In this document: one piece after another, positions 2,916 through 20,645 of the stretch
How the letters are laid out: the number at the start of each line of letters is the position of its first letter
Numbering within the stretch: the stretch's first letter is position 1
Program-made: the position numbers and the translations under genes
From: Candidatus Nanoarchaeia archaeon
GTDB taxonomy: Archaea > Nanobdellota > Nanobdellia > Woesearchaeales > DATDTY01
DNA: 34,557 nucleotides
Reading direction: 5' to 3'
Assembly: GCA_035290625.1 (NCBI GenBank)
Contig: DATDTY010000015.1
Span: 1 to 34,557, forward strand
The notes under the pieces: generated by a model
Seen by the model: the letters and a program-made list of their open reading frames with translations, nothing else
Database searches by the model: none
What the model was told of the DNA's origin: nothing

Positions 2916-3078
2916 GGCTCCGGTGAAAATCATTGCTGCCGCCTCTTTGTGAGGCTCTTAAGGATTGCCATAGACGGAATTGAGGGGGTCGCCCCATTCG
3001 GGGCTTCAAAGGTACGCAAGCAGAGGATAGAACGAGCCGAGCCGGCGGCAGCCGCGAAGAGAGATTTTCGCCGAATCC
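2916..3078 (+). ncRNA. candidate structured RNA, family copy A
   Basis: P1 pairs 2921-2931 with 3063-3073 (11 bp) and continues through mismatches to 2916/3078. P2 pairs 2935-2943 (GCTGCCGCC) with 3044-3052 (GGCGGCAGC). TCTTTGTG at 2944-2951 pairs with CGCGAAGA at 3053-3060, outside P2, which makes a pseudoknot. GTGAG is at 2949-2953 and AGGG starts at 2983, followed by a GCCCC-ATTC-GGGGC hairpin (2991-3004). GGCTC/GAGCC (about 2953-2957/3034-3038) may close the inner domain. A TATA-like TTTATA near 2890-2896 could start the transcript close to P1. Strand is inferred from this and from GTGAG. Confidence 0.6.
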
Positions 3079-3125
3079 AAGCAATTACGAAGATTTATTA
3101 AGAAGTTCTTTCCTACTGCTGGACT

Positions 3126-4136
3126 ATGAAGGTAGCATTTTTCGGACTGGAGAATGAGCACGAGGAGTATGCCAAAAAAGTTCTCAAGAAGCATCAGCTG
3201 TCCTTCTATCGCAACCATCTCGACGAGCAGACCCTTGCCCTTATAAAGGATGTTGATGTGCTGGCTGTCTTTGTCTTCTCTCCAGTAACCAGGGCAGTTA
3301 TTGACAGCCTGCCCAAGCTTAGGCTTGTCACAACAATGTCCACAGGCTTTGACCATATCGATCTTGAATACTGCAAGAAAAAGAAGATTACTGTCTGCAA
3401 TGTTCCAACCTATGGAGAGAATACTGTAGCAGAGCATACCTTCGCCCTTATACTGGCATTATCACGAAGGCTCTATCAGGCAATCGAGAGGACTCACAAA
3501 CAGCATTCATTTGAGACTGACAGCAGCTTGAGGGGATTTGACCTTAAGGGAAAGACCTTAGGCGTTGTGGGATGCGGCCATATCGGCAGGCATGTCGCCA
3601 GGATTGGTGTAGGGTTTGAGATGAATGTAGTCGCCTTTGACCATTATCGCGATGAAAAACAGGCACGCAAGATTGGCTTCACCTATGCTCCTTTTGACGC
3701 AATCCTCAAGAAATCAGATATCCTCACCCTGCATGTTCCTTACATGAAGCAGACCCATCACCTCATTGATGCAAAAGCGATCAGGAAGATGAAGAAAGGC
3801 GCATTGATTATCAACACAGCAAGGGGGGGAATTATTGATACCCCGGCATTAGTTGATGCCCTGGAAAGCGGAAAGCTTGCTGGAGCTGGCCTTGACGTGC
3901 TTGAGGGAGAGTGCGAAATCAAGGAGGAGGCTTCTGTCCTGAAGAAGGAATACAAGGCAACCTGCAATCAGCTCACTACTTTGCTTGAAGACCATGAGCT
4001 GATGAAGATGGAGAACGTGATCATCACTCCGCATAACGCCTTCAATTCAAAGGAAGCTTTGCAGCGGATCCTTGACACAACGATTCAGAATATTGTCAGT
4101 TTTGCACAGGGAAAGGTGGAGAATCAGGTGAAGTGA
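3126..4136 (+). CDS. D-isomer-specific 2-hydroxyacid dehydrogenase, D-lactate dehydrogenase-like
   Basis: This is a 336-residue NAD-dependent dehydrogenase that interconverts a 2-keto acid and a D-2-hydroxy acid. Family motifs are clear: the NAD loop GVVGCGHIGRHVARIG near residues 146-161, the catalytic Arg in NTARGGIID, the Glu in LDVLEGE and the catalytic His in ITPHNAF. Overall it resembles LdhA/fermentative D-lactate dehydrogenase more than phosphoglycerate dehydrogenase, and it has no ACT domain. A TATA-like TTTATTAA near 3093-3100 sits 25-30 bases before the ATG, suggesting a nearly leaderless message. In a fermentative DPANN cell it would reoxidise NADH; that role is inference. Confidence 0.9.
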   Translation: MKVAFFGLENEHEEYAKKVLKKHQLSFYRNHLDEQTLALIKDVDVLAVFVFSPVTRAVIDSLPKLRLVTTMSTGFDHIDLEYCKKKKITVCNVPTYGENTVAEHTFALILALSRRLYQAIERTHKQHSFETDSSLRGFDLKGKTLGVVGCGHIGRHVARIGVGFEMNVVAFDHYRDEKQARKIGFTYAPFDAILKKSDILTLHVPYMKQTHHLIDAKAIRKMKKGALIINTARGGIIDTPALVDALESGKLAGAGLDVLEGECEIKEEASVLKKEYKATCNQLTTLLEDHELMKMENVIITPHNAFNSKEALQRILDTTIQNIVSFAQGKVENQVK

Positions 4137-4146
4137 CGAAATCCAG

Positions 4147-4638
4147 CTACTTCAGCATATCTATCGTCTTTCTTAGTTGATAATGAGTATCCAAGTAACC
4201 TTCTCCTGGCACATACATTCTAAGGTGGCCGCCCCTATATAGGTCTAGAATACCAATAGGATCTTTTGGATGGATAATCACAGACTGCTCAGACACAATG
4301 GTGTAATCCTGGGTGTTGCAGCAGTCTAACAAAAGCGCTAATGCCTGCCCATCCATCTTGTTGATCCAATTCTGCATGATATGCTCTCTTTTACCATCAA
4401 AAAAAATCCACTTGCTTTCCGAACCATCAGTTTCAAGACCATGAGCACTGAGTAGGATATACCCTGTTAAATGGGTTCTTTGGCTATAGGCTTCCAGCAC
4501 TTCTCTAAACAATCGCCGCTTTGTAAACTCTCTTACTATAGTGCCTACATATACCTCCAAATCCTCCGATCCCCTCTCTTGATCAAAGAAATCTGAGGAT
4601 TCATAATACTCACAATGGTCAAAAGTGTATAGTCTCAT
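4147..4638 (-). CDS. small caspase/CHAT-like peptidase domain protein
   Basis: This is a 163-residue protein carrying the two catalytic landmarks of the caspase-hemoglobinase fold. A hydrophobic strand ends in His-Gly (YILLSAHG, His66) and, about 40 residues later, another ends in LLLDCCN (Cys106 or Cys107). Clan CD proteases such as caspases, metacaspases and CHAT domains share this spacing. The N-terminal part includes LEVYVGTIVREF, and the tail has RGGHLRMYVPGEGY. No signal peptide, TPR or other domain is attached. It is convergent with the dehydrogenase, 10 bases apart. A degenerate or non-proteolytic member cannot be excluded, but His and Cys are both kept. Confidence 0.6.
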   Translation of the reverse strand: MRLYTFDHCEYYESSDFFDQERGSEDLEVYVGTIVREFTKRRLFREVLEAYSQRTHLTGYILLSAHGLETDGSESKWIFFDGKREHIMQNWINKMDGQALALLLDCCNTQDYTIVSEQSVIIHPKDPIGILDLYRGGHLRMYVPGEGYLDTHYQLRKTIDMLK

Positions 4639-4686
4639 GAAGGAACTAGCGTTTTGAGGGAGATTATAACCGTTGCGGCAACAAGG

Positions 4687-4890
4687 GCTCCATCCAAAAA
4701 ATGAAGGTTGCCATCAATTCGTGAGGCTCTTTGCAATGATATGCGCTGCTGGCAGGGGGATGTCCCTACGGGGATGCCAGCCTTATACTGTGAGAAGATC
4801 AGCCGAACCGATGCGCTCCGGAGGAGCACTTGAAAATACCCGAGTATTTTCATTGGCAACCCGACTGAAAGGAGGTTTTTTGGATGGAGC
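4687..4890 (+). ncRNA. candidate structured RNA, family copy B
   Basis: The longest copy. P1 is a perfect 15-bp helix, 4687-4701 with 4876-4890. P2 pairs 4706-4713 (GGTTGCCA) with 4854-4861. The weaker pseudoknot is TTCGT at 4718-4722 with ACTGAA at 4864-4869 (one bulge). GTGAG is at 4721-4725 and AGGGG starts at 4754. Extra hairpins are GCTGGCA/TGCCAGC (about 4747-4782), GCTCC/GGAGC, and a perfect 9-bp stem with a CCGA loop at 4831-4852. A TATA-like ATTATAA lies near 4663-4669. With its flanks it fills the 371-base gap 4639-5009, where I see no credible gene. Confidence 0.6.
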
Positions 4891-5009
4891 TCCTCAAAAG
4901 GTTCGCGAGAGTTCGATTCTGAGGATGCCAAAGCTGCAAAAAAGGTAGTTCAAAACGTCTACAATTATCACAGGTCTTATTATGTAGCTTTAAGAAAGCC
5001 GTAATGAAT

Positions 5010-5249
5010 TCATTTTTCAACATACCATCCAGGAATCTCATCGAAGAAGATGTAATCCCGGCAAACAGAGCTTCTCACCCTGTTCAACTCTTCTGCGGCG
5101 CTGAAATACTCCAGTGATTGAAAAAGAAACGTGAAATAATTATTGAGCACAACATACTTCTTGCATGCAGCAAACAAATCGATTACCCTATTTTGGTCTT
5201 TGGTATGCGCCTCAGCCAAGAGTTCTTCCAGGAGTTGTGTGTCTTGCAT
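5010..5249 (-). CDS. hypothetical protein, 79 residues
   Basis: I do not recognise this protein. It is small, acidic and probably helical, starting MQDTQLLEELLAEAHTKDQ and ending in the aromatic FFDEIPGWYVEK. It has no signal peptide, membrane segment or metal motif. Support for a real gene is a minus-strand TATA box (TTTATAAAG, plus coordinates about 5278-5288) some 30-35 bases before the ATG. It is divergent from the DsbA-like gene at 5396. Confidence 0.5.
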   Translation of the reverse strand: MQDTQLLEELLAEAHTKDQNRVIDLFAACKKYVVLNNYFTFLFQSLEYFSAAEELNRVRSSVCRDYIFFDEIPGWYVEK

Positions 5250-5354
5250 TTCTGTTCAATGGTTGTGGGCTCTCACTTACTTTATAAAAATTACTACTTT
5301 CGATAGGTGTGATCTTAGAATCAATCACTCATAACTTCACTATCGTTACGGATA

Positions 5355-5364
5355 CTTTTAAATA
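5355..5364 (+). promoter_or_regulatory. TATA-like box before the DsbA-like gene
   Basis: TTTTAAATAA around 5355-5364 lies about 30-40 bases before the ATG at 5396, giving a short leader. The 146-base divergent gap 5250-5395 thus holds one TATA box for each direction. Confidence 0.45.
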
Positions 5365-5395
5365 AACCTCATTGCAACATTGCGCTTGATTACGA

Positions 5396-6289
5396 ATGAT
5401 CTGCATCATCGCTTTGATTGTCTTTGGGATTTTAGGCATTTTCAGCGCAGCGCACAGGAAGCTTGCAAAAGAGGCTCTTGATTGCGTTGCCAGGAGAGTT
5501 GTCCTTAGGCCTTGCGAGACAGGCTTTGACCAGAGGATAAAGAGCCTTGTTGTTGGAAAGTTTCTCCGCTTTCCCTGGCTCGCCAGGCCGCTGTACAGGC
5601 ATTTTGAATCCTTTTCCTGGCTCTTGATTGGCCTGATGATTGTAAGCACGTTCTTTATTGCCCAGGGCGCTTACAATTATGCGAAGTATGGGAACTGCAA
5701 TGGCAGCCAAGGAGGATTCTGCATCTATGATTCCCTGGATGGAAAATCTGAGCTAAAAAACCCAGGCCCCGATGACGATCCCGGCATTGGCCCAATCGAT
5801 GCGCCTGTCCAGATTATCGAGTTTGGCTGCTTTAAGTGCTCGTTTACAAGGGAGGCTGACAAGGTTATCTGGCAGGTTATGGAAGAGTATCCGGAGAAGA
5901 TAAGGTTTGTGTACAGGGATTTTCCTCTCTCAGCAAGGCACAGGGGCGCTGTTGATCCCAGCCTTGCAGCAGACTGTGTGCTTGAGCAGGACCAGAGCGC
6001 ATATTGGCAGTACCGCGGCATTCTTTTCCAGAACCAGAATGCGCTGAGCAATGAAGACCTTGCTGCCTATGCTCAAAACATAAGTATAGACCTGGAGCAA
6101 TGGAAAGAATGCTTTGACTCAGGAAAACACCTTGATGAAGTGGAGCATGACTATGAGGATGGATTGGAAGCAGGAGTGTATGGAACACCCACATTCTTCA
6201 TCAACAACCAAAGCTTTGTCGGGCCTCAGAGCTATAAAACGTTCAAGAGGGTAATCGAAAAGGAGCTGGAGAAAGCGGGCGTCACGTGA
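5396..6289 (+). CDS. membrane-anchored DsbA-like thiol-disulfide oxidoreductase
   Basis: This is a 297-residue protein. Two hydrophobic segments (about residues 1-18 and 73-91) form an N-terminal hairpin, with a basic Arg/Lys-rich stretch between them on the expected cytoplasmic side. A DsbA/thioredoxin domain follows from about residue 133. The active site is CFKC (residues 145-148) after the strand VQIIEFG, and the cis-proline loop is GTPTFF (263-268). It should oxidise or exchange disulfides in extracytoplasmic proteins. The window also encodes Cys-rich secreted proteins, a second thioredoxin-fold protein and CcdA, which fits a dedicated extracytoplasmic thiol system. The downstream 176 bases are AT-rich with no evident gene. 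Confidence 0.88.
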   Translation: MICIIALIVFGILGIFSAAHRKLAKEALDCVARRVVLRPCETGFDQRIKSLVVGKFLRFPWLARPLYRHFESFSWLLIGLMIVSTFFIAQGAYNYAKYGNCNGSQGGFCIYDSLDGKSELKNPGPDDDPGIGPIDAPVQIIEFGCFKCSFTREADKVIWQVMEEYPEKIRFVYRDFPLSARHRGAVDPSLAADCVLEQDQSAYWQYRGILFQNQNALSNEDLAAYAQNISIDLEQWKECFDSGKHLDEVEHDYEDGLEAGVYGTPTFFINNQSFVGPQSYKTFKRVIEKELEKAGVT

Positions 6290-6465
6290 TCGTTTTAGTT
6301 GGTTAGAAAATCAGCGAAAATTAAACAATTAAATAAAATTAATGAAGATTAAACAATGAAATGCGAATAAAGGCTCAATGAAAATAAAAAGATAAAGACA
6401 GTAATCAGGCATAAAACGGAAGATGATGTCAATGAGAAGCAAATACTAGCTCCGGTCTATTAAAA

Positions 6466-7683
6466 ATGCTCAACACAGAAAAGATACGAAAGGATTTTCC
6501 GATATTGGAAGGCAAGAACCCTCCGGTCTATTTTGACAGCGCATGTATGGCGTTAAAGCCAAGGCAGGTTGTTCAGGCATTAGAGCGCTATTACTATGAA
6601 TTTCCAAGCTGCCATGGAAGAAGCTCGCATAGGCTTGGAAGGAAGCTGAATGACGAGATTGAAGCCAGCAGAAAAGTGATTCAGAGGTTCTTTGGCTCCA
6701 AGGGAGAGGTTGTTTTTACCAGAAACACAACCGAGGCCATTAATCTGGTAGCCAGCTCATTTCCCTTCAAAAAAGGAGATACAGTCATCACAACAGATAA
6801 GGAGCATAACTCCAACCTGGTTCCATGGATACGATTAGCTCAGGAGAAAGGGATTGTCCATAAGATTGCAGCATCTGATGAGAGAGGCCTTTTTTCTTTG
6901 GATTCATTTGAGAGCCTCTTAAAAAAAGCAGGAAAGGAGGGAGCATCGCATAAAAGTATATTGGTCTCAATGGTGCATACCTCTAACCTTGATGGAACAA
7001 CACTTCCTGCAAAGGAGATCTGCAAGATCAGCCATGAGTACGGAGCTGTTGTGCTTCTAGACGGCGCGCAATCTGCCCCGCATAAGGAGATTAACCTAAA
7101 AAAGATTGATGCTGACTTCTTTGCCCTCTCAGGCCACAAGATGATGGGGCCCACAGGGATTGGATGCCTGATTGGAAAGCCGGAAGCTCTCGAGAAGCTC
7201 TCCCAGTTCATTGTTGGGGGCGAGACAGTAACAAACTCAACCTATGAAGGATACACTCCTGAAAGAATACCGAATCGTTTTGAAGCAGGGCTGCAGCACT
7301 ACGCAGGCATCATAGGGATGGCAGAGGCATGCAGGTATATTGAGGCAATTGGGAGATCAGATATAGAAAAGCATGACCTGGAGCTGAATGGGATCATAAC
7401 CCATGGGCTTAGGGATTCTGTCGATATCCTTGGGCCAGAGGATCCTGCAAAGCGCGGCAGCATCTTCAGCTTCTGGATTAGGGGGATGGAAAGCCATGCA
7501 GCTGGCCTGATGCTTGATGCCCGGAATATCATGGTCCGCTCAGGGATGCACTGCTGCCATTCGTGGTTCAATGCCAGGAAGAAGGAAGGGTCTGTCAGAG
7601 CATCCCTGTATATCCATAATACTGCAGAGGAATGCCATAGGTTTATTAATGAGATAAAAAGAATAAAGCGTATTGCGGGGTGA
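6466..7683 (+). CDS. sufS: cysteine desulfurase, SufS/CsdA type
   Basis: This is a 405-residue PLP enzyme of the class V aminotransferase fold. It takes sulfur from cysteine to give alanine and an enzyme persulfide for Fe-S cluster or thio-cofactor synthesis. The PLP lysine is Lys225 in SGHKMMGPTG. Upstream are TRNTTEAIN (cofactor phosphate loop), the histidine in DKEHNSN and the aspartate in LLDGAQS. The mobile-loop cysteine is in RSGMHCCHSW (Cys363-Cys364), the SufS-type position. SufBCD partners are not in this window. The next gene starts 4 bases after its stop, so the desulfurase and a thioredoxin-fold protein form an operon. Confidence 0.92.
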   Translation: MLNTEKIRKDFPILEGKNPPVYFDSACMALKPRQVVQALERYYYEFPSCHGRSSHRLGRKLNDEIEASRKVIQRFFGSKGEVVFTRNTTEAINLVASSFPFKKGDTVITTDKEHNSNLVPWIRLAQEKGIVHKIAASDERGLFSLDSFESLLKKAGKEGASHKSILVSMVHTSNLDGTTLPAKEICKISHEYGAVVLLDGAQSAPHKEINLKKIDADFFALSGHKMMGPTGIGCLIGKPEALEKLSQFIVGGETVTNSTYEGYTPERIPNRFEAGLQHYAGIIGMAEACRYIEAIGRSDIEKHDLELNGIITHGLRDSVDILGPEDPAKRGSIFSFWIRGMESHAAGLMLDARNIMVRSGMHCCHSWFNARKKEGSVRASLYIHNTAEECHRFINEIKRIKRIAG

Positions 7684-7687
7684 AACC

Positions 7688-8386
7688 ATGAGGTATGATC
7701 AAATAACAGCTGTTGTGCTGAGCCTTGTTTTGGTTATGTTGGTTATCAATTATTTCCAGATCCAGTCAGTCCAGAAGACCTTGAAAGGAACAGGATTGGC
7801 GACTGTTGGAAATACCGACACTGTGAAAGGCGCTGTTCCTGTTGAATTCTATGTGATGAGCCAGTGCCCCTATGGAATCCAGGTTGAGAATGCCATAGCT
7901 CCAGCTTTAGGGTTATTGGGAGATGCTGTTGATTTCAGGGTTGACTACATTGCGGATGGAAGCGGCGGAAGATTTACAAGCCTTCATGGCCAGCCTGAAG
8001 TCGAGGGAGATAAGATCCAGCTGTGTGTCCAGGAGCACTTCCCCCAGGAGTTTATGGATTTTGTCACATGCCAGAATCAGCAGCCTGCAAACCTTGGAGG
8101 AACCGTAGAGTCATGCAGCAGAGCCGCAGGCATTGATTCGCAGAACGTGCTTGCATGCGCTTCAGGAGAGGAAGGAAACATGCTTCTGGAGCAGTCGATT
8201 GCAGCTTCAAGGAATGCAGGAGCGACAGGAAGCCCGACCATGTTCGTCAACAACAAGCCGTATAGAGGAGAAAGAAGCTCGCAGGCTTTCCTGGCAGCAA
8301 TCTGCAATGAGCTTGCTGTGAAGCCGGCTGCCTGTAACAGCATTGTCGGAGGAGAGGCTGCTGCTGTGCAGGGCGGATGTGAGTAG
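7688..8386 (+). CDS. membrane-anchored thioredoxin-fold protein with CPYG motif
   Basis: This is a 232-residue protein with an N-terminal signal anchor (about residues 8-25) and an extracytoplasmic thioredoxin-like domain. The active-site position reads SQCPYGIQ (Cys60), a single-cysteine version of CxxC, and the cis-Pro loop is GSPTMF near residue 193. Several further cysteines occur, including CVQEH, CQNQ, CSRAAG and the C-terminal GGCE. This resembles DsbA/GILT-like proteins of archaea and suggests isomerase or thiol-carrier activity. I chose the ATG at 7688 because GGGGTGA precedes it by a few bases; the in-frame TTG at 7673 overlaps the desulfurase. Confidence 0.8.
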   Translation: MRYDQITAVVLSLVLVMLVINYFQIQSVQKTLKGTGLATVGNTDTVKGAVPVEFYVMSQCPYGIQVENAIAPALGLLGDAVDFRVDYIADGSGGRFTSLHGQPEVEGDKIQLCVQEHFPQEFMDFVTCQNQQPANLGGTVESCSRAAGIDSQNVLACASGEEGNMLLEQSIAASRNAGATGSPTMFVNNKPYRGERSSQAFLAAICNELAVKPAACNSIVGGEAAAVQGGCE

Positions 8387-8471
8387 GGGGTAGTTTGTAT
8401 GTTTGGCATTTTGGTTCCAAAAAAGAGTACAGGGCTCTTGGCTTAAATGTATGGGAACTGGAAAGGCGTTC

Positions 8472-9209
8472 TTACACTTTTTCTTTCTTATCTTCAAGGT
8501 TAGTTCTTTCATCTCGTGCTTTAACCGCCTTATACCACAGTACGTGCTCATAGATGCTTGACCATAACATTCCAAAGGTAAAAGCAAACATCAATTCTTC
8601 CAAGGGCACTCCAAGAAGCAATACTCCTGAAATTGCTGAAAGATTCCACACTTCTTGAACCAAACCAGGATAACCTAGGTTAAACAAAAGGAAAAATCCA
8701 AAATAGAGGGCTAGGAAGGATAACCCTCCAATCCAGACTTTTCTCTTTAGATCAGGCCGGCAGAAAATTGCGGCTATCCCGCCAACAAACATGGCGATAC
8801 TCGCTGAATAAATGGGATTCAATTTAGTAAATAATTGTAATGGAAGGAAAACAATCACCGGAGAAGCTAAAGCAAGTAGATGCAATCTATGTTTTTTTCT
8901 ATGTCTTTCATGCTTGCTTATTTCTTGATGGTTCACTCTAAGTAAAGCTTCATACATGATCGCCCCAATCCCACCAATAGCAAAGCTGAAAATAAAGCTC
9001 TCGATATCAAAGCCGGTTCTACTAGCTAGGTTAAATAAAGATGGAGGGCTCCAGTATTCGGGCACGAACAAATGTTCGGTTAGTCCAAAAGGCGCAGTGA
9101 AAATACTTACCCAAAACATTTCTTTACGGAGTTTTGGCTTAACCAACCAGATAAGCAGCCAAACTGACAGAAGTACTAAAGACGCTGTTAACCATGGATT
9201 CAATGCCAT
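8472..9209 (-). CDS. lycopene-cyclase-domain integral membrane protein
   Basis: This is a 245-residue polytopic protein with about six or seven hydrophobic segments. Two motifs resemble the CrtYcd/lycopene cyclase domain: FWVSIFTAPFGLTEHLFVP near residues 32-50 and GVPLEELMFAFTFGMLW near 205-221, the second matching the conserved P-x-E-E-x-x-F motif. In known members this domain cyclises the ends of lycopene. No carotenoid genes (crtB, crtI) lie nearby and many archaea carry orphan relatives, so the substrate is uncertain. It is convergent with the CPYG thioredoxin gene, 85 bases apart. The C-terminal tail is charged and probably cytoplasmic. Confidence 0.75.
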   Translation of the reverse strand: MALNPWLTASLVLLSVWLLIWLVKPKLRKEMFWVSIFTAPFGLTEHLFVPEYWSPPSLFNLASRTGFDIESFIFSFAIGGIGAIMYEALLRVNHQEISKHERHRKKHRLHLLALASPVIVFLPLQLFTKLNPIYSASIAMFVGGIAAIFCRPDLKRKVWIGGLSFLALYFGFFLLFNLGYPGLVQEVWNLSAISGVLLLGVPLEELMFAFTFGMLWSSIYEHVLWYKAVKARDERTNLEDKKEKV

Positions 9210-9362
9210 CGTTTCTCTTTTGCAGCTTTCCTCTCGTCAACATTCATCTTGCATATCGGATCCTGTACCGTACTACTGACCTCAAGATCATTTTAACGGA
9301 TGCTTTGGCAGCCTCCATCTACCCCTTTTTTTGAGAGAACAATCTCCCATGTTTTTTCCATG

Positions 9363-9470
9363 TTACGGCCTCAGCCATGTTGGGTGCATTATCACCAGCA
9401 TAATTATAAAGAATGCTGCAAATATCCCCCATACCATCGCATTCTTAATTCTCCTTTTGTCTAATGGCAT
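9363..9470 (-). CDS. 35-residue single-pass membrane miniprotein
   Basis: The frame starts MPLDKRRIKNAMVWG, runs through one hydrophobic helix (about residues 11-28) and ends MHPTWLRP. Its ATG at 9470 lies inside the last codons of the DUF2933-like gene (stop at 9461) in another frame, a 10-base overlap typical of translational coupling. AAAGGAG lies downstream inside the gene, so initiation probably depends on the upstream gene. The basic N-terminus predicts that end in the cytoplasm. The His near the membrane exit could touch metal, but that is speculation. Bases 9210-9362 hold no evident gene. Confidence 0.55.
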   Translation of the reverse strand: MPLDKRRIKNAMVWGIFAAFFIIMLVIMHPTWLRP

Positions 9471-9682
9471 TTTTTATCCTCTCCGGGTTTCTTATCGTCA
9501 TGCATATGCCTCATCATAAAGTAATGCGATAGCGGACAGAGCAATAATACCGCCCAAAATAAATAACTTCTGCTTATTCCAAAAAAATATATGGCTCCAA
9601 TTAACAAAAGCAAAGGCACGCCGCAGCACACAATCATCATTAAGGCGTGGTTATGCTTTAATTTGTCTATCCAGTTCTTCAT
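9461..9682 (-). CDS. DUF2933-like small membrane protein
   Basis: This is a 73-residue protein: a short amphipathic start (MKNWIDKLKHNHALMM), two hydrophobic helices separated by GISRS, then LCPLSHYFMMRHMHDDKK and a Cys-His end. The CC near residue 19, LLCPLxHxFMMR and the His/Met-rich tail match the DUF2933 pattern, which is usually found beside copper, mercury or other heavy-metal genes. The start at 9682 is preceded by GGAGGG; the longer upstream frame runs through the divergent promoter and is less likely. It is divergent from the PadR/TRASH regulator and probably controlled by it. Confidence 0.72.
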   Translation of the reverse strand: MKNWIDKLKHNHALMMIVCCGVPLLLLIGAIYFFGISRSYLFWAVLLLCPLSHYFMMRHMHDDKKPGEDKKCH

Positions 9683-10228: not shown

Positions 10229-10229
10229 A

Positions 10230-12581: not shown

Positions 12582-12624
12582 ACAATTCATCTTTAGGTGA
12601 CCTCGACTTTACAGCTCAGATAAG

Positions 12625-12799
12625 GGAGGTTGGTGCAAAATTGTAGGTTGCCATCATTTTGTGAGCAACATCGCTAATGAATAAGCATCGACCTCGAGGG
12701 GATGCTCCATCCGGGACGAATGTCGATTATCACAGACATCTATGCCATGTGCGAACTCGATGGCAATCCGAGCATTGCGAGAATTTCGCACCAGCCTCC
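12625..12799 (+). ncRNA. candidate structured RNA, family copy C
   Basis: P1 pairs 12625-12642 with 12782-12799, 17 of 18 positions. P2 pairs 12646-12655 (GGTTGCCATC) with 12759-12768 (GATGGCAATC), 10 of 10 with one G-T. TTTTGTG (12657-12663) can pair, mostly by wobble, with TGCGAGA just after P2, forming the pseudoknot. GTGAG is at 12661-12665 and AGGGG at 12697-12701. The distal arm CGAC...GTCG is shared with copy D. The copy follows the ccdA stop by 43 bases and may be the 3' part of that transcript; a separate promoter is unclear. It occupies most of the gap 12582-12864. Confidence 0.62.
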
Positions 12800-12864
12800 A
12801 GATAATGGAAAGTCTTAAATATTCTCTCTGCAAGATACATTTCTTGAGCAGGTAAGCAGATGCA

Positions 12865-13812
12865 ATGAAAAAGCAACAACCATCAAAAAAGATTAAAACA
12901 AAGAATTACCAGCGGCTTAGTTTTCTTGCTCTTTTTCTGGCGTTTGCTTTGATTCTAGGCAGCTTAATCGGAAATGATAAAGACAGCGACAAAGCAGGCC
13001 TTGCCTCAAAGAGCAGCACTGATCACTCTACTGATACTTCTCATTCTACTGAAGTGAGAATCTGTGAGGCTCCGTGTATACTCTCATTTAATCCTTCTCG
13101 ATGGACGCCTCCTCAAGGAGTTACTCAGCCAGATGATGTCGGCAGGGAGATTGCACGCAGTCTCGGAATGACAGGAGAAGGATGGAGCGAAGGTGTTATG
13201 TCTATATGCCGCAGAGAGTTCTCTGAATCAGTTTATGATGTAATGAGATGTCGTCTTTCTTTTGTCACTATTTCAGGGATCGGAGATCGAAATAAAGACA
13301 CCGACAAAGCAGGCTTTGCTTCAAAGACTACTACCCATTCAACTGAGGTATCCACTGAAGTACCGACCTGCCAGGCTCCTTGTATACGCCATTTAGACCC
13401 ATCGGATCCCTTCCAATGGCAGCAACTAAGAGAGATTACTCAGCCAGATGATGTCGGCAGGGAGATTGCACGCAGTCTCGGAATGACAGGAGAAGGATGG
13501 AGCGAAGGTGTTATGTCTATATGCCGCAGAGAGTTCTCTGAATCAGCTGATGTAACGGGATGCTATCTTTCTTTTTTCAATATTGCATTGGAAGGAGCTT
13601 GCGTAGGCGGCCAAAGCCCTTCCGATGTAGCTTGGAACACGCTTCAGGCAAACGGCATAGAAGACAGAAACGCATATAGCGGTACAGAAGAAACTCAGCG
13701 TTGTTTAAACGCCCGCAGAGATTGCCAGGAGGCCTGCGGTTCTATCCCAGACGGTGAATTACTAAACACGTGCCTTACTCGGCTTAAAACCATAAACCCA
13801 GCCTGCGGATAA
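12865..13812 (+). CDS. secreted Cys-rich protein with duplicated domain
   Basis: This is a 315-residue protein with a basic start (MKKQQPSKKIKTKNYQR) and one hydrophobic segment (about residues 18-36), a signal peptide or anchor. A Ser/Thr-rich linker follows, then two copies of a domain of about 105 residues with CEAPC or CQAPC, TQPDDVGREIARSLGM, MSICRREFSES and another Cys. A third, different Cys-rich tail follows (CVGGQSPSDVAW, CLNARRDCQEACG, CLTRL, PACG). The even Cys spacing suggests extracytoplasmic disulfides, making it a possible client of the thiol enzymes in this window. I do not recognise the domain. A TATA-like TTAAATATT lies near 12815. Confidence 0.7.
   Translation: MKKQQPSKKIKTKNYQRLSFLALFLAFALILGSLIGNDKDSDKAGLASKSSTDHSTDTSHSTEVRICEAPCILSFNPSRWTPPQGVTQPDDVGREIARSLGMTGEGWSEGVMSICRREFSESVYDVMRCRLSFVTISGIGDRNKDTDKAGFASKTTTHSTEVSTEVPTCQAPCIRHLDPSDPFQWQQLREITQPDDVGREIARSLGMTGEGWSEGVMSICRREFSESADVTGCYLSFFNIALEGACVGGQSPSDVAWNTLQANGIEDRNAYSGTEETQRCLNARRDCQEACGSIPDGELLNTCLTRLKTINPACG
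13121..13545 (+). repeat. exact 110-bp direct duplication within the Cys-rich gene
   Basis: Bases 13121-13230 and 13436-13545 are identical over 110 bases and offset by 315 bases, which is 105 codons, so the frame is kept. The flanking parts of each unit match only at the protein level. This means either a recent duplication or gene conversion of an older duplicate restricted to the 110-bp core. Confidence 0.9.
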
Positions 13813-13848: not shown

Positions 13849-14421
13849 TTATTTCCTCACCACTTTCTCCTTCCCTCCCGTCAGATCAACCACCTGGGAA
13901 GGCTGCCCGTTCTTCTCCCCTTCATAGATCACAATGGGAACCTGTGCCTTGAAATCATGGTGCAAGTTCTCCAGAGAAGTCATGAAGTCCTGGCCTGCCT
14001 TGTTGGCAGAGGTGGTGATAATAGGAAAGCCGAGTTTCTCAACGACAGTATGGATCCAGTGGTTGGGAATTCTCACGCCGAGAGTCTTGCCTCCCGGGTT
14101 TACAGCCTGGCTCACGGCCTTCTTATTCTTTAGCTCCAGGATAAGAGTCAATGGCCCCGGAAGCTTCTGCACCCACTTCCTCTCCTTCTCAGATACCCTG
14201 CAATTCTTCAGTATCCATTCCTTTGAGGGAGCGATGATGGAGAACGGAGCAGTCTTCCTTGCCTTGAGCTCCCTGATCTTCCTGACTGCAGCATCATCCT
14301 TTGCATTGCAGCCGATGCCGTAGATCGTGTCTGTAGGATAGATGAAAATCTCCCCTTTCTTTATCTCAGCAAGGCAGATGTCCGCAGTATACAGCACGTC
14401 TTCCTTTGAGAGCACTCTCAT
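13849..14421 (-). CDS. threonylcarbamoyl-AMP synthase, Sua5/YciO/YrdC family
   Basis: This is a 190-residue single YrdC domain without the extra Sua5 domain. It makes threonylcarbamoyl-AMP from threonine, bicarbonate and ATP for the t6A modification of ANN-decoding tRNAs. Diagnostic segments are IYPTDTIYGIGCNA (residues 27-40), KIRELKARKTAPFSII with the conserved KxR near 48-60, PGPLTLIL near 89-96, and the C-terminal GVRIPNH and ITTSANKAG. The minus-strand TATA box TTATAAAT is about 20-30 bases before the ATG, and GAGGTGG precedes the start. The usual partners (Kae1, Bud32) are not in this window. Confidence 0.9.
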   Translation of the reverse strand: MRVLSKEDVLYTADICLAEIKKGEIFIYPTDTIYGIGCNAKDDAAVRKIRELKARKTAPFSIIAPSKEWILKNCRVSEKERKWVQKLPGPLTLILELKNKKAVSQAVNPGGKTLGVRIPNHWIHTVVEKLGFPIITTSANKAGQDFMTSLENLHHDFKAQVPIVIYEGEKNGQPSQVVDLTGGKEKVVRK

Positions 14422-14627
14422 GCCACCTCGGCATTGCCGGGAATTTATAAGAGTATGGTTTAGATTTTATATAATTTATATAGAACTCCAGTACTATCCC
14501 CAAGTGTGGAACTTCGCTTTCTGGAAAACCTGCCGAAGTTATTACTGCTGAATGGATCGCATCTTCCCGAGGATAAAACGCAAAAAACAACGTATCTGTT
14601 CTAATCTATAGTTTTAAGATTCAATGT

Positions 14628-14637
14628 ATTTATAAAT
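14628..14637 (+). promoter_or_regulatory. TATA box of the ribonucleotide reductase gene
   Basis: ATTTATAAAT at 14628-14637 lies about 29-38 bases before the ATG at 14666, giving a very short leader. I see no long conserved leader or riboswitch here, although the encoded enzyme is probably B12-dependent. Confidence 0.5.
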
Positions 14638-14665
14638 TCAGCAGCCAGAAAAAAACTTCAGAAAG

Positions 14666-17620
14666 ATGGATAACAAAACCCTTCAGTATGTTCGAAAGCG
14701 GGATGGCTCAAAAGCGGAGTTTTCCAGAGACAAGATCACTGAAGCCATTTTCAAGGCTGCCGGGTCTGTAGGAGGCAGCAACAGGAGAGAGGCAGCCAAG
14801 CTTGCTGATTTGGTTGTGGCGCTTATGGAAGAGGCATTTCCTTCCTCGCACATCCCGCATGTTGAGGAGGTCCAGGATATCGTTGAGAAAGTCCTGATTG
14901 AGAACGGTCATGCAAAGACTGCAAAATCCTATATCCTGTATCGGGCCAGGAGGGCAAAAGAGCGCGAAGAGGAAGTCACCCAGAAGGTCGAATCAGAACA
15001 TGCTGAACAAGGGTCTGCTGAAAGCCCGGGCCAGGCCGTTGCTGAGATGTTCACCTATACCTCAAAGCTTTCCAGGCTTGTGCCAAAGGAGAGGATTGAG
15101 ACATACCGGAGGCTCTATTATCTGCTCAAGGACATGATTGCTGCAGGCGAGCTTCCAAGCCATCCAAACTACCTGGGCGATAACGAGCTTGCAGAGAACA
15201 TCTACAGGAACAAGTATTATCTGAAGGATTTTAAGGGAGAGTGCATTGAGGGCTGTCCTGAAGACGTCTTTGCCAGGCTGGCCTCATATATCGCTGCAGT
15301 TGAGCCAACAGAGGATACTCAGAAGAAGTTTGCAATTGCGTTCTACAAAGACCTGTATCATGGAAGCTATCTTCCAGGAGGCAGGGTGATGGCCGGAGCA
15401 GGGGATCTCTACAGGCTCAAGACCCTTGCCAATTGCTTTGTGAGCCTGATCCAGGGAGACGATATCGAGTCTATATTCGGCACTGCCTATGAATGTGCGC
15501 GCACCTATAGTTATGGAGGCGGCATTGGTGTGGATATCTCAAACCTCAGGCCGACAGATTCCATTGTGCATAATGCAGCAGACCGCTCAACAGGAGCAGT
15601 CTCATTTATGGAGCTCTACAGCCTCACCACAGGCTTAATTGGCCAGTCAGGAAGAAGAGGGGCGCTTATGCTTACCATGGATGTCAAGCATCCTGATATC
15701 CTCCGCTTCATTGATGTCAAGAAAATCCCGAATTGGGTAACAAAGCAAGTTATCAAGCAGTGCGAATGGACAGGAAAATTCAGCCAAGCCCAGCTTGGAG
15801 AGATTGAAACGCAGGTGAGGGATAACACCCAGGTGAGGTTTGCCAATATCAGCATCAAGGTTTCTGATGAGTTCATGGGAGCAGTAGACGAACAGATCAC
15901 CTATGGGGAGAACGCTATCATGGTCTACAAGAAGTATACGCAGCATATCGTAAACGACGCTCCGCAGAACAAGACCCTGCACTACTCCTACGGCATTCCC
16001 TCAAAGAACCTTGAGGATTACAGCTTAGAGGCTGGCTTTAACACACTTCAGGACGCCAACACCTACCTCAAAGAGAAGTATCATATCGCGCTCAAAGAGG
16101 CTGACCTCGCATTTGAACGGAGAGATGTGTTCGGAGATTTTGTTGTCCCCCTGGAGCATGAGAGCTATCATCTGGCGATCCATAGGTCTGGTGATTTTAT
16201 GCTGTACTTCAGTTCTTCCCATACAGGCGAGATCAAGAGGCTTGTCAAGGCAAGAGATGTCTGGAACCGCTTTATTGCCTCAAACTATAAGACTGCAGAG
16301 CCTGGCCTGATATTCTGGTCTACAATGGTGAAGTATTCACCCTCAAACTGCCTTGGCGTGCCGATTGCAAGCACCAATCCCTGCGGAGAAGTTCCTTTGG
16401 AGGATGGCGGAGCCTGCAACCTCGGCTCTATAAACCTCTCACGCTTTGTGAAAGGGGGGTATACTGAAGAGGCGAGCATTGACTGGAAGGGAATCCAGGA
16501 TGCAACCTCCAACCTCGTCCGTTTTCTTGATAACGTGATCAGCTGGAATTCGGTGCTCAATCCCCTGGAGAAGCAGAGGGCTGCAGCATCCAGCATGAGG
16601 AGGATCGGCCTTGGCATCATGGGCATTGCAGATATGCTGAATCAGCTCGGGATTGGCTATGACAGCGAGGAGGGCATAAAGCTCATGGAGAAGGTCTCAT
16701 CAGTGATTGCAAACAGCGCGTATGGTGCATCAGCCATGATTGCTGCTGAGAAGGGCTCATTTCCGCTCTTCAACCTTGAGCAGTATGCAAAGAACAGGTT
16801 CTTCATTGAAAGCCTTGCTGCCGAAACAAGAGAGGCAGTGGTGAAGCATGGCTTGAGGAATGTTGCCATCCTTTCAATTGCGCCCACAGGAACCATATCA
16901 AATGCCATCCTGGGGTTCACGAACAAGGCTAGGAATTATGTTGGCGTTTCAGGAGGCATTGAGCCGATCTTCAGCCTCTACTACACAAGACGATCCGAGT
17001 CATTCAACAAATTCTTCAAGGTATTCCATCCAACTGTGCAGGCCTATATTGACCTGAAGGAGATGAACACCAAGGTCCAGGATACAAAGGATATCGATGA
17101 TCTGCAGAAGCTGCTTCCCAGCCATTTCTTCCGCACAGCGCACTTCATTGCAGCAGAGAAGAGGGTTGTGATCCAGGCAATCTGCCAGAAGTATATTGAC
17201 CACAGCATCAGCTCTACGGTAAACCTGCCTGAGAGCGTTGATCCGGAAACGATCACAAACATCTACCTCAATGCCTGGAAGCAGAAGCTCAAGGGCATTA
17301 CGATCTACAGAGATGGAAGCAGGTATCCAATCCTCTCCATCGAGGCAGAGCAGACAGAGTTCAAGGATATCAAGGAGAAGCAGTTCCGCTACCTTACAGA
17401 GGAGGGCGAGCAGATCGTGAAGGGAGACGAGGTTGTTGTGCTTCCGAATGCCGAGCTCAGCACACCTTTCCATCTCATGAAGAACGGCAAGCCTAATGAT
17501 ATCATCCTTGAAGAGATCTCAGCAGAGGAGCAGCTGGTGCAGCCTGAGGTCCCTGTTTCTGGAAAGGTATGCAAAGTGAAGTTTGAGAACGGCAAGCTTG
17601 TCAAGGACTGCGGTGATTGA
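14666..17620 (+). CDS. nrdJ: ribonucleoside-diphosphate reductase, probably adenosylcobalamin-dependent (class II)
   Basis: This is a 984-residue enzyme that reduces ribonucleotides to deoxyribonucleotides. Residues 5-95 form an ATP-cone (VRKRDGSKAEFSRDKITEAI). The catalytic barrel has the first redox Cys in LANCFVSL (Cys257), the active-site NPCGE (Asn571, Cys573, Glu575) and the second redox Cys in GGACNLGSINL (Cys584). The PTGTISNAILG loop and the absence of a neighbouring small-subunit gene favour class II. The C-terminal tail has Cys969 and Cys982, 12 residues apart, a wider pair than the usual CxxC reductant tail. Residues about 425-525 look like a lineage insertion; I see no intein motifs. 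Confidence 0.88.
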   Translation: MDNKTLQYVRKRDGSKAEFSRDKITEAIFKAAGSVGGSNRREAAKLADLVVALMEEAFPSSHIPHVEEVQDIVEKVLIENGHAKTAKSYILYRARRAKEREEEVTQKVESEHAEQGSAESPGQAVAEMFTYTSKLSRLVPKERIETYRRLYYLLKDMIAAGELPSHPNYLGDNELAENIYRNKYYLKDFKGECIEGCPEDVFARLASYIAAVEPTEDTQKKFAIAFYKDLYHGSYLPGGRVMAGAGDLYRLKTLANCFVSLIQGDDIESIFGTAYECARTYSYGGGIGVDISNLRPTDSIVHNAADRSTGAVSFMELYSLTTGLIGQSGRRGALMLTMDVKHPDILRFIDVKKIPNWVTKQVIKQCEWTGKFSQAQLGEIETQVRDNTQVRFANISIKVSDEFMGAVDEQITYGENAIMVYKKYTQHIVNDAPQNKTLHYSYGIPSKNLEDYSLEAGFNTLQDANTYLKEKYHIALKEADLAFERRDVFGDFVVPLEHESYHLAIHRSGDFMLYFSSSHTGEIKRLVKARDVWNRFIASNYKTAEPGLIFWSTMVKYSPSNCLGVPIASTNPCGEVPLEDGGACNLGSINLSRFVKGGYTEEASIDWKGIQDATSNLVRFLDNVISWNSVLNPLEKQRAAASSMRRIGLGIMGIADMLNQLGIGYDSEEGIKLMEKVSSVIANSAYGASAMIAAEKGSFPLFNLEQYAKNRFFIESLAAETREAVVKHGLRNVAILSIAPTGTISNAILGFTNKARNYVGVSGGIEPIFSLYYTRRSESFNKFFKVFHPTVQAYIDLKEMNTKVQDTKDIDDLQKLLPSHFFRTAHFIAAEKRVVIQAICQKYIDHSISSTVNLPESVDPETITNIYLNAWKQKLKGITIYRDGSRYPILSIEAEQTEFKDIKEKQFRYLTEEGEQIVKGDEVVVLPNAELSTPFHLMKNGKPNDIILEEISAEEQLVQPEVPVSGKVCKVKFENGKLVKDCGD

Positions 17621-17766
17621 GTTTCAAGTAACATCGGGGGTTCTGTTAGCCGACCTACGCGTAAACATCTAGAGAGACATCTCACTTTTCTAGAAGATAG
17701 GTAGTATCCAGACCGCATAAATAGGCTAAAGCAACCTCTCGTTCTTGTTGTTGATCTATAATCAAG

Positions 17767-18090
17767 TTATACCTTCACTTGAACGAGCGGTTTTACGCGC
17801 CCCTTCTCCACTTCGGAATCAACAACGGACCAATAGTATGCAATGAACTTCTCTACATAGGGATTTTCCCTGTTTAATGCATACATTTTTGCCTTTCCAA
17901 CATTCCTTGTATTGACAACGATCTTTCTTCTTATGAAAAGTTTCCAGATTTCTTTTAACGCAGTGTAGCTCACGTCTGAGAACCGAGCAATATCTTTCAT
18001 TGAATAATCAAATTCTGAATGAACTATTAAAAAATTCCATAGTCTATTCCGGACGGTATTCCCTTCCAGTCTTAGAAATGCTGATGTCAT
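17767..18090 (-). CDS. winged-helix DNA-binding protein
   Basis: This is a 107-residue protein. Its first 75 residues form a winged helix: NTVRNRLWNFLIVH, then the helix-turn-helix SMKDIARFSDVSYTALKEIWKL, then the wing IVVNTRNVGKAKMYALNRE. The tail (YVEKFIAYYWSV) is a likely dimer helix. This architecture is frequent in archaeal regulators and in the N-termini of nucleotidyltransferase antitoxins. A minus-strand TATA (TTTATATAC, about 18111-18119) lies some 25 bases before the ATG, so the message is probably leaderless. It lies head to head with the next small gene, about 100 bases away. The target is unknown. The 146-base gap after the reductase shows no gene. Confidence 0.7.
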   Translation of the reverse strand: MTSAFLRLEGNTVRNRLWNFLIVHSEFDYSMKDIARFSDVSYTALKEIWKLFIRRKIVVNTRNVGKAKMYALNRENPYVEKFIAYYWSVVDSEVEKGRVKPLVQVKV

Positions 18091-18193
18091 GGAATAAGGA
18101 ACCTGGCCCTTGTATATAAAGGTTTCTTTTTTGTACTTTAAGGGTCAAGAAAGCGACCCAAACTTTATTAAGCCGGTAGTATCGTCTTAATCT

Positions 18194-18511
18194 ATGCCCA
18201 AAGTGAAAAGGAGTGAATATATCAAACTCAGTAGAACCGTCATTAGAAAATTGTACGATGGAACTTGTTTTGGCAAGGGTTCCCTGTATCTTGAAACTCT
18301 ACAGCACGGCATTCCTCCTGAGTATGGAGGCAAAGTAGAGATCGTACTCGATGCTTTGGTTAAACAGCGCGTTTGCGGAAAGAAGAAGAAGGAACATGGC
18401 TGGAAATATTATCTGAATATGGAGAGAATAGACAAAATCAAAGAAATACTAAAAGAGAAGGACGAAAGATCAATAATTCCGCTATTGTTGATGTTACCGA
18501 ACATCTTGTAA
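18194..18511 (+). CDS. hypothetical small basic protein, possible winged helix
   Basis: This is a 105-residue Lys-rich protein, MPKVKRSEYIKLSRTVIRKL, with a segment EIVLDALVKQRVCGKKKKEH followed by WKYYLN that could be the recognition helix and wing of a winged helix. A basic amphipathic C-terminal helix follows (IDKIKEILKEKDERS). I do not recognise the family. TTTATTAA near 18164-18171 is a TATA-like site about 25 bases upstream of the ATG, and it lies back to back with the divergent wHTH gene's promoter. Confidence 0.5.
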   Translation: MPKVKRSEYIKLSRTVIRKLYDGTCFGKGSLYLETLQHGIPPEYGGKVEIVLDALVKQRVCGKKKKEHGWKYYLNMERIDKIKEILKEKDERSIIPLLLMLPNIL

Positions 18512-18546
18512 ATATGACTGCTGTCGGAGATGCAGAGATTTGGTGA

Positions 18547-19242
18547 TTAACGATTTTCTACATGGATTGTTGAATCCTTCATACCCAATTTAAGGATGTC
18601 ATCGAGGCTTGCCCTTTCAGCCGGAACTATGCCGTCAAGAGCGTCTGTTTTGTTTCCGTCCTTGAGATCTCCTACACACCAGACCTTATCCCAAAGATTA
18701 AAGGCATAACCAGCCTGCGCAAAACCAATGAGCGCGTCATGCATTGTCCCATCATACAAAAGACGCCTTTCTGCTTTGGCAAATCGTATTTTTTGATGAA
18801 GAAAGTCATCATACCGGCCACTTCGATCCTGTAATCTGAAACAGTCTATTCGCCTGGCTGGAGCTGTGATTTCCGCGAGAAGATTGAGAGACTCATCCCA
18901 CATTGCTTGCTTGAGAGATGATGACTGAGACTTGAAACCTGATGCCGGAGGATGAGAGATCATATAAACTCCCGTATTATCATATGCTGCGTGGGATTGA
19001 TTTTTTATTTCTATCATACGTGCAATTTCTTCTCCAGTAGAGAAGCCCATTCGCTCCAGATCTTTTCTAGATTGGGCAAGATATTCCTGCCATTCTTCGG
19101 GATTCTTCCTTCGCCATATCCTTACTCCTTCCACAAGAAATACTCTATGAGAGGCGAATAATTCCGGAATGGATACCTTTAGCCTCCCAGAATCCGGGTC
19201 TCTATTTTCGGAGATTACTGAATCTGAATAGAGATGAGCCAT
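18547..19242 (-). CDS. hypothetical protein, 231 residues
   Basis: I do not recognise this protein. It is soluble and has no signal peptide. Features are a Trp/Arg-rich segment VFLVEGVRIWRRKNPEEWQE (residues 34-53), the Arg-rich stretch ITAPARRIDCFRLQDRSGR, KIRFAKAERRLLYDG near 151-165, and WDKVWCVGDLKDGNKTDALD near 184-203. Conserved-looking charged and aromatic residues suggest an enzyme or nucleic-acid binding domain rather than a chance frame. It is 33 bases from the TFB gene stop and in the same orientation, so it may be transcribed after TFB. Confidence 0.55.
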   Translation of the reverse strand: MAHLYSDSVISENRDPDSGRLKVSIPELFASHRVFLVEGVRIWRRKNPEEWQEYLAQSRKDLERMGFSTGEEIARMIEIKNQSHAAYDNTGVYMISHPPASGFKSQSSSLKQAMWDESLNLLAEITAPARRIDCFRLQDRSGRYDDFLHQKIRFAKAERRLLYDGTMHDALIGFAQAGYAFNLWDKVWCVGDLKDGNKTDALDGIVPAERASLDDILKLGMKDSTIHVENR

Positions 19243-19275
19243 AAAAGACCTCTGCCATTGGGTTTCTAGTAAGAC

Positions 19276-20196
19276 TTATTTCTTCCGCTTAACCTTCTTT
19301 ATCTCCCGCTCCAGCTTAAGCTCTTCAAGAAGTTCCTTGTAGCGGTTTCGGATTGTGACTTCAGTGACTCCTGCCACGTCTGCAACCTCTCTCTGAGTCC
19401 TCTTCTCTCCATGGATGAGGGCTGAAACATACAACGCAGCTGCAGCAATCCCTGTCGGCCCTCTTCCTGAGGTCAGCTCAGATCTCTGTGCGCGCTCAAG
19501 GATCTCAACAGCCTTTGATTGCGTCTCTGCAGTGAGCTTTAATGAGGATGCAAACCTGGCGATGTAGTCAGAAGGGTTGGATGGCCTGATTGTGATCCCA
19601 AGCTCTCTCGTGACAAAACGATACGTCCTTCCGATCTCTTTCTTCTCTATTCCAGAAGCTTCAGAAAGCTCATCCAATGTTCTTGGCACTTCATGCCTTC
19701 TGCATGCTGCATAGAGCGCTCCTGCAACAACAGATTCCATAGACCTTCCCCGTACAAGGCCCCGCTGGACAGCAAGGGTATAAATCCTGGCAGATTCCTC
19801 TTCCACAGAACTTGGAAGCTTAAGGTAGGAAGCAACACGCTTCAGCTCTGCCAATGCAAGCTTGAGGTTCCTTTCAATAGCTGTAGAGATCCTGTACTGC
19901 CACTTTCGCAGCCTGAAGAATTTGTTCCTGTCTCTTGCCCCAAGCTGGTAGAGGTCTGCCTTTCTCCCAACCTCAGTCCCCATGCCCTGGTCAAACTGGG
20001 TATAGGTCATGGGAGCTCCGGTTCTCCTTCGTGACTCCCCGCCTTCTGACTCAAACTCACGCCATTCCTGGGTGAAATCGACCATCTTGTCTTCAATGAC
20101 AAGGCCGCAGTCTTTGCAAATGATCTCTCCCTTCTCCTTATTCATGAAGAGATTGATTCCTGCGCATTCCGGACACTTCTTCACATATTGGACCAC
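19276..20196 (-). CDS. tfb: transcription initiation factor TFB (TFIIB homologue)
   Basis: This is a 306-residue archaeal general transcription factor that bridges TBP-TATA and RNA polymerase. The N-terminal zinc ribbon has C8-x2-C11 and C27-x2-C30. The B-reader/linker includes EWREFESEGGESRRRTGAPMTY. Two cyclin folds follow (about 105-200 and 205-300), with GRSMESVVAGALYAACRR in the first and GRGPTGIAAAALYVSALIHG in the second. The C-terminal helix-turn-helix TQREVADVAGVTEVTIRNRY contacts the BRE. It is full length and is the strongest evidence for an archaeal source. It is divergent from the Trm112-like gene, sharing a 126-base AT-rich gap. Confidence 0.97.
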   Translation of the reverse strand: MVQYVKKCPECAGINLFMNKEKGEIICKDCGLVIEDKMVDFTQEWREFESEGGESRRRTGAPMTYTQFDQGMGTEVGRKADLYQLGARDRNKFFRLRKWQYRISTAIERNLKLALAELKRVASYLKLPSSVEEESARIYTLAVQRGLVRGRSMESVVAGALYAACRRHEVPRTLDELSEASGIEKKEIGRTYRFVTRELGITIRPSNPSDYIARFASSLKLTAETQSKAVEILERAQRSELTSGRGPTGIAAAALYVSALIHGEKRTQREVADVAGVTEVTIRNRYKELLEELKLEREIKKVKRKK

Positions 20197-20289
20197 TGCC
20201 AGACCCCCAACTTATTTATCGGCATATGATAACACTACTTTTATATACTAAATTCAGTCTCCCTTTATAAATATATCGCTTTTTTGGGA

Positions 20290-20298
20290 AGGTTTATA
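20290..20298 (+). promoter_or_regulatory. TATA box of the Trm112-like gene
   Basis: GTTTATAAA around 20290-20299 lies about 25-33 bases before the ATG at 20323, giving a leaderless or nearly leaderless transcript. Confidence 0.5.
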
Positions 20299-20322
20299 AA
20301 TGGCGGTCGGATTTTTGGCCCT

Positions 20323-20463
20323 ATGGGGCTTCCAAAGGAACTTCTGGACATGCTGGCCTGCCCCCAGTGCAAGGGAAAGCTGAAGCAGAACGGAGAGAGC
20401 CTTCTGTGCGAAAAATGCAGCAAGGAGTATCCAATCCAGGATGGGATCCCTATCCTGACATAA
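20323..20463 (+). CDS. Trm112/YcaR-like zinc-ribbon protein
   Basis: This is a complete 46-residue protein reading MGLPKELLDMLACPQCKGKL, then the second zinc knuckle CEKC (residues 29-32), and ending EYPIQDGIPILT. The order ELLDxLxCPxC...YPIxDGIPxL is the signature of the Trm112p/UPF0434 family. Trm112 activates several methyltransferases that act on tRNA, rRNA and release factors in archaea and eukaryotes. This copy is shorter than eukaryotic Trm112 and equals the minimal ribbon found in bacteria and many archaea. Copy D of the repeated RNA starts 24 bases after its stop and may share its transcript. Confidence 0.85.
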   Translation: MGLPKELLDMLACPQCKGKLKQNGESLLCEKCSKEYPIQDGIPILT

Positions 20464-20486
20464 GTCCATCGTTCTGAACAATTCAG

Positions 20487-20645
20487 CTCTGGTGAAAGTG
20501 AAGGTTGCCGCCCTTTCTGTGAGGTTTTGGACCAAGACATCAGCACCGACAAGGGAGTTGCCCCCATGGAGGAATGTCGGTTACCATCAAAAACAGCAGA
20601 GCCGGACTTGGCGGCAACCCAAGCGTTTGCGAGATTTCACCGGAG
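20487..20645 (+). ncRNA. candidate structured RNA, family copy D
   Basis: P1 pairs 20487-20497 (CTCTGGTGAAA) with 20635-20645, 11 of 11 with one wobble. P2 pairs 20503-20512 (GGTTGCCGCC) with 20610-20619, 10 perfect pairs. TTTCTGTG (20514-20521) can pair with TGCGAGA (20628-20634) with one bulge. GTGAG is at 20519-20523 and AGGG starts at 20552. CCGACA/TGTCGG (about 20546-20580) closes the distal arm, where copy C has TCGAC/GTCGA. No TATA box is obvious between the Trm112-like stop and P1, so it may be cotranscribed. It lies in the 375-base gap 20464-20838. Confidence 0.6.

Follow-up and report, generated by a model that had tools for sequence, protein, structure and literature searches.

Four intergenic intervals in a 34,557-nt stretch of contig DATDTY010000015.1 (the window) are very probably copies of a structure-defined, non-autonomous mobile element of Woesearchaeales whose insertion is targeted to the preinitiation complex. 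The source is the genome of a Candidatus Nanoarchaeia archaeon of this order (1.37 Mb, 84 contigs), and all genomes compared here are draft metagenome assemblies. The element is 150-220 bp long, non-coding and multicopy, its termini are paired with each other through a closing helix (P1, GG...CC), and it occupies roughly 1.7% of its own genome. The initial annotation had described the intervals as a new RNA family; its unrecognised, covarying fold stands, while an RNA gene family placed beside unrelated neighbours gives way before 9-bp target-site duplications and a fixed distance to promoters. Both of these were absent from that account, as were a helix P3 inside P2, a hairpin P5 and about 140 further copies.

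Copies in the window and in other genomes

The consensus fold was derived from 19 curated copies of the source genome, and a covariance model (R1) was built without copies A and B. R1 recovers all four copies where they had been annotated and nothing else in the window (Table 1), and the shared order of parts is as first described: P1, P2, a U-rich strand running into GTGAG, an AGGG arm, the P2 partner and the P1 partner. All four indeed lie between genes. The 3' edge of copy A is 47 nt from the ATG at 3126 of a 2-hydroxyacid dehydrogenase gene, and the 5' edge of copy B is 48 nt from the ATG at 4638 of a minus-strand, weakly caspase-like ORF (4147-4638), whose caspase-fold (Peptidase_C14) match falls just below the Pfam cut-off. 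Copy D lies 192 bp upstream of tRNA-Ser at 20838, and neither a duplication nor a promoter signature was recognised at its edges. The extra arm seen in copy B is optional, occurring in about half of the curated own-genome copies. Elsewhere in the window, a 1298-aa ORF with long Thr/Pro-rich repeats (22832-26728, minus strand) is probably a surface protein.

Table 1. Element copies and associated features in the window
Feature	Coordinates	Strand	Remarks
Copy A	2916..3078	+	R1 73 bits; decayed; without remaining target-site duplication
TATA-like box TTTATT	3094..3099	+	16-21 nt from copy A; gene starting at 3126; spacing equals the general TATA peak
TATA-like box TTATAA	4664..4669	-	18-23 nt from copy B; leftward gene with ATG at 4638
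Copy B	4687..4890	+	R1 match 4699-4831, 41 bits; decayed; extra two-hairpin arm
Optional two-hairpin arm (copy B)	4810..4851	+	Follows CGAAC and precedes the P2 partner
Left target-site duplication of copy C, CAGATAAGG	12617..12625	+	8/9 identical to right copy
Copy C	12625..12799	+	R1 match 12628-12796, 101 bits
Right target-site duplication of copy C, CAGATAATG	12799..12807	+	8/9 identical to left copy
TATA-like box TTAAATAT	12815..12822	+	16-23 nt from copy C 3' edge; upstream of gene starting at 12865
Copy D	20487..20645	+	R1 130 bits; fold well preserved

With copy D as query, BLAST against the 84 contigs of its own genome gave 21 matches, so that the four copies are members of a dispersed repeat, and R1 places the element at 144 sites in the 1.37-Mb genome and at 148 in the stretches that were fetched. 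Contigs C9, C22, C27, C45, C56, C67, C75 and C80 of this genome start or end within element copies; the element thus interrupts the assembly, and the copy number is probably under-counted given these contig ends. Among relatives, R1 is positive in 18 of 61 genomes of the order and in 54 of 377 of the phylum, all 54 of them belonging to the same order as the source; the named carriers are Woesearchaeota and Nanoarchaeota assemblies. Searches of viral contigs, phages and plasmids with one consensus pattern and one 156-nt copy gave no match. In keeping with the initial view that the family is unrecognised, a search of Rfam matched none of the element copies, with cut-offs of E<=5 in the window and E<=1 at 13 loci.

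Several copies carry additional sequence. A second palindrome (GTGGCTTGCGAGC...) is inserted at differing positions within copies, for example at L016 (1845-2161) and L020 (1885-2200), and the two-hairpin CTCCGAAGGAG...ATGCGAAGCAT arm is recurrent at one place in the element; both may be small repeats in their own right. One truncated 5' half (L013:3219) was considered as a coding version of the element and rejected, being a broken copy beside a gene end.

Target-site duplications and position relative to promoters

Among the 138 own-genome copies with both flanks available, 44 have 9-bp direct repeats (at least 8/9 identical) abutting their paired termini, as compared to 0.45 expected when flanks are swapped among copies, and in 29 of these the repeats are identical at 9/9 positions. 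The same is seen in relatives, where 53 of 94 copies have such repeats (at least 8/9 identical) as compared to 0.8 expected. The presence of 9-bp direct repeats at its edges therefore indicates that the element was inserted. Five pairs of copies are separated by only 7-9 bp, and at three loci (L093, L102 and L111) the same short repeat is found at all three edges of the paired copies, as expected if a second element had inserted at the same site.

The site of insertion is defined with respect to the neighbouring gene. With simple hexamers taken as TATA boxes and open frames as genes, a TATA-like hexamer lies about 16-25 bp from the element edge, its start being at 18-25 bp, at either end and far above background; the gene concerned points away from the element, and its ATG is found at 43-48 bp with a peak at 45. 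Counts of ATG at 43-48 nt from element ends (119 copies) reach 54 as compared to about 5 expected, and 52 of the 119 copies have an ATG within 42-50 bp. This spacing is repeated in relatives (TATA at -23/-21, ATG at 45-46), and the peak is 3-5 bp wide. In ordinary genes of the source genome TATA starts at -30 to -28 from the ATG, these being leaderless promoters; therefore the TATA near the element is the neighbouring gene's own core promoter, and the element is positioned just upstream of BRE and TATA. Three copies are found upstream of tRNA genes at 46, 46 and 42 nt, with a TATA-like stretch between, and three further copies lie 62-82 bp from tRNA genes.

The promoter signature accompanies 76% of copies with intact duplications in the source genome and 90% in relatives, so that about a quarter of young own-genome copies have no recognisable signature, whereas among old copies, those without intact duplication, it falls to 50% and 43%, respectively; control windows 60 bp further out from intact copies have it in 2-4%. 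Since the signature is weaker in old copies, the position is attributable to targeting at insertion and not to survival. Both orientations are used, with 20 young copies in relatives having the signature at the 5' edge only and 21 at the 3' edge only.

Conserved fold of the element

The fold is nested, with P1 closing the element and P2 inside it, from which GU/AC pairs and a tandem G.A motif lead into P3. The tandem G.A motif (GUGAG/CGAAC) frames P3, with U-A to C-G switches present, and P3 in turn encloses a hairpin, P4, with the near-invariant CGACAAGGGAGTTGCCCC..GGGGAATGTCG. A small variable hairpin, P5, lies between P2' and P1'. Double changes are found in 24 of 42 pairs in the 19 own-genome copies, a number reached in 0/500 shuffles, and double substitutions are found in 41 of 42 pairs in 94 distinct copies from other genomes, aligned by fitting to R1. 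When partners in the latter alignment are slid by one to three columns, pairing drops from 94% to about 40%. The earlier statement that helix sequences change with pairing kept is thus borne out, and the covariation extends to more homologues. The pseudoknot proposed at that time, between the U-rich and purine-rich strands, does not hold up, as the two strands taken from one copy show no better pairing than strands exchanged among copies (mean run 4.62 as compared to 4.68 shuffled in the source genome, and 3.76 as compared to 3.82 in relatives). In one copy (L045/L106, G000:C51:5508-5672), one P1 strand has drifted while the opposite strand and the 9-bp duplication are intact, which is a natural example of post-insertion decay.

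Conservation is unevenly spread over this fold. The sequences of P1, P2 and P3 change almost completely between subfamilies with the fold kept, at least 10 subfamilies with differing end sequences occur in one genome, and the best-conserved parts are the centre (P4) and the unpaired motifs GTGAG...CGAAC, not the termini. This pattern is at odds with an ordinary MITE derived from an insertion sequence (IS), in which a DDE transposase would read duplex terminal repeats and the inner palindrome would be a foldback remnant kept paired by arm-to-arm correction. Such an origin is possible, if doubtful: it would account for the terminal repeats, the 9-bp duplication, the high copy number, the lack of a gene and the near-pure Watson-Crick pairing with few G-U pairs, but arm correction would erase the conserved unpaired loops too, and no transposase with matching ends was seen among those of the IS240, IS256 and mutator types.

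It is unlikely that the element is a structured non-coding RNA family, each copy being an RNA gene or leader selected as RNA and served by a promoter of its own some 25 bp upstream. Such a family would have strong covariation across homologues and on one defined strand, conserved loops, and a TATA upstream of the 5' end, and these are seen, the last in some copies; the target-site duplications and the lack of an Rfam match speak against it, and in relatives the 3' edge has TATA and ATG as often as the 5' edge, both belonging to the gene that points away. The nature of the pairs is also informative, since RNA-selected pairing predicts frequent G-U and rare A-C. In relatives, G-U and A-C make up 2.3% and 1.3% of pairs (81:44), a modest G-U excess that would fit RNA, as compared to 7.2% and 0% (14:0) in nine tRNAs from the same loci, which were called by a tRNA finder that disfavours mismatches. 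In copies with intact duplications the ratio of G-U to A-C is 64:45 outside P4b (own P2 omitted because of register), and in 17 subfamily consensus sequences G-U is near zero there (10 of 622 cells, alignment slips accounting for part of these). A-T pairs often switch to G-C while G-U intermediates are few, and an RNA-like G-U frequency with rare A-C was thus not found.

Because G-U pairs are scarce and the helices nearly pure Watson-Crick, the evidence suggests that the selected fold is DNA at least as likely as RNA, and the fold is read here as acting mainly in DNA, single-stranded or extruded. As G-U versus A-C is not fully one-sided, RNA is kept as a rival. As DNA, each of the two strands gives a good fold (z -5.4 and -6.1). 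GAA triloops, whose stability in DNA is very high, are frequent in P5 and are a suggestive pointer, though only that, to a DNA fold. Strong covariation by itself should not be equated with an RNA gene, and duplications and the ratio of G-U to A-C should be checked.

Relation to known systems

The systems nearest to the element in kind are MITEs, while those nearest in targeting are TRE5 and Ty3. Like MITEs such as the Sulfolobus SM elements, Correia, ERIC and BOX, it is short, non-coding, multicopy and intergenic, with terminal inverted repeats, target-site duplications of fixed length and, if transcribed, a foldable transcript (PMC10969869). MITEs are normally derived from an IS and share the end sequence of that IS (PMC10969869), whereas the ends of this element vary by subfamily with pairing kept and the centre conserved, no IS from which it could derive was found, and its insertion is directed to one set position at promoters.

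In Dictyostelium, TRE5-A has its primary site 47 bp upstream of tRNA genes, immediately past the footprint of TFIIIB, and TBP binds the TRE5-A ORF1 protein in vitro (PMC5391098). TRE5-A and yeast Ty3 insert upstream of the start at a constant distance from it, next to the footprint of a TBP-containing complex, a safe site in compact genomes that is used repeatedly; both are retrotransposons with coding capacity that use RNA polymerase III genes specifically, and TRE5-A is always in one orientation (PMC5391098, PMC5006619, PMC8632968). The present element resembles them in site, at 45 bp from the leaderless ATG and 42-46 bp from three tRNA genes, where it would abut a bound preinitiation complex. 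It differs from them in lacking genes, in lying at promoters of both protein and tRNA genes, and in using both orientations; at 150-220 bp, the copies are too short for a reverse transcriptase, integrase or endonuclease gene.

Other systems also involve hairpins of DNA. Integron attC sites recombine with attI via a tyrosine recombinase and are not known to have a 9-bp target duplication or promoter targeting, and IS200/IS605 and REP/RAYT are not known to leave a target-site duplication. The element is like IS200/IS605 and REP/RAYT in being a small hairpin DNA unit that would be moved in trans, and unlike all three in its 9-bp target-site duplications. attC sites are folded DNA hairpins in which the stem sequence varies and unpaired features are conserved (PMC3053210, PMC11641012), and the element resembles them in this.

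In the literature searched, which left most subscription journals outside, no earlier description was found of this element or of promoter-complex-targeted insertion by any archaeal mobile element. The archaeal TBP-TFB complex has its eukaryotic homologue in the TFIIIB/TBP machinery by which Ty3 and TRE5-A are guided, and targeting of the kind proposed here would therefore represent a parallel strategy, perhaps a convergent one, in another domain. If so, element copies would mark core promoters in uncultured archaea.

Mobilisation of the element

No mobilising gene was found. Six families were profiled (PF00872, PF13610, PF01797, PF00078, PF01609 and PF00665) with no convincing link to element presence, and an all-against-all comparison of 1155 open frames near copies, in which an autonomous copy was sought, gave no transposase-like family. 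Transposases of the IS240, IS256 and mutator types in 61 draft genomes were without the element's ends, other families being searched for presence only. Y1 transposase genes occur in the source genome, and their presence does not follow that of the element (8 of 18 genomes with the element as compared to 14 of 43 others).

Reverse transcriptase genes alone are nominally associated with the element (Fisher p 0.01 before correction), which, together with the conserved fold and the precedent of TRE5-A (PMC5391098), would fit an RNA-mobilised, SINE-like element whose folded RNA would be copied by reverse transcription for integration at promoters. This is distinctly improbable, as the duplications are close to 9 bp and not variable, orientation is not fixed, no tail is present, and 9 of the 18 element-bearing genomes show no reverse transcriptase. 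The reverse transcriptases that were read (two genomes) resemble diversity-generating retroelements, and the association was rejected on this ground. Random insertion with survival only just upstream of promoters, for which the compact, gene-dense genome and the harm expected of insertion inside a core promoter could be cited, is very improbable given a peak 3-5 bp wide and a signature stronger in young than in old copies, the opposite of what survival predicts.

The preferred reading of a promoter-targeted mobile element can be carried further only tentatively: its identity may lie in the fold of a single DNA strand and not in an end sequence, and it may be moved by a recombinase of an undescribed kind and tethered to the archaeal TBP-TFB preinitiation complex, so that it inserts just upstream of promoters genome-wide, including those of tRNA genes. 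In the preferred reading itself, a bound preinitiation complex (TBP-TFB, perhaps with RNA polymerase) would lead a trans-acting enzyme to the site, where it would make a 9-bp staggered cut, and the bound complex would protect the core promoter, so that the host would suffer little from the insertion. Subfamilies have different end sequences and yet keep the pairing, and for this reason recognition by the enzyme is probably of the folded strand (single-stranded or cruciform DNA) with its conserved central hairpin, not of a fixed terminal sequence.

Two further loci are of separate interest. At the end of one contig of the source genome (L210, G000:C49:1-914), an IS240-like transposase lies between GGTTAAGTCAAC...GTTGACTTAACC repeats that start exactly at the contig end; the IS240-type transposase of this genome is bounded by GGTTAAGTCAAC repeats, ends other than those of the element. 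In a relative (L239, G047:C49), the N-terminal part of a reverse transcriptase ORF (1114-3450, minus strand) resembles the end of the neighbouring ORF (VERVLRLGCYANGFYVYAYGVVNDEWPARG), and the locus has the appearance of a diversity-generating retroelement accompanied by its template repeat.
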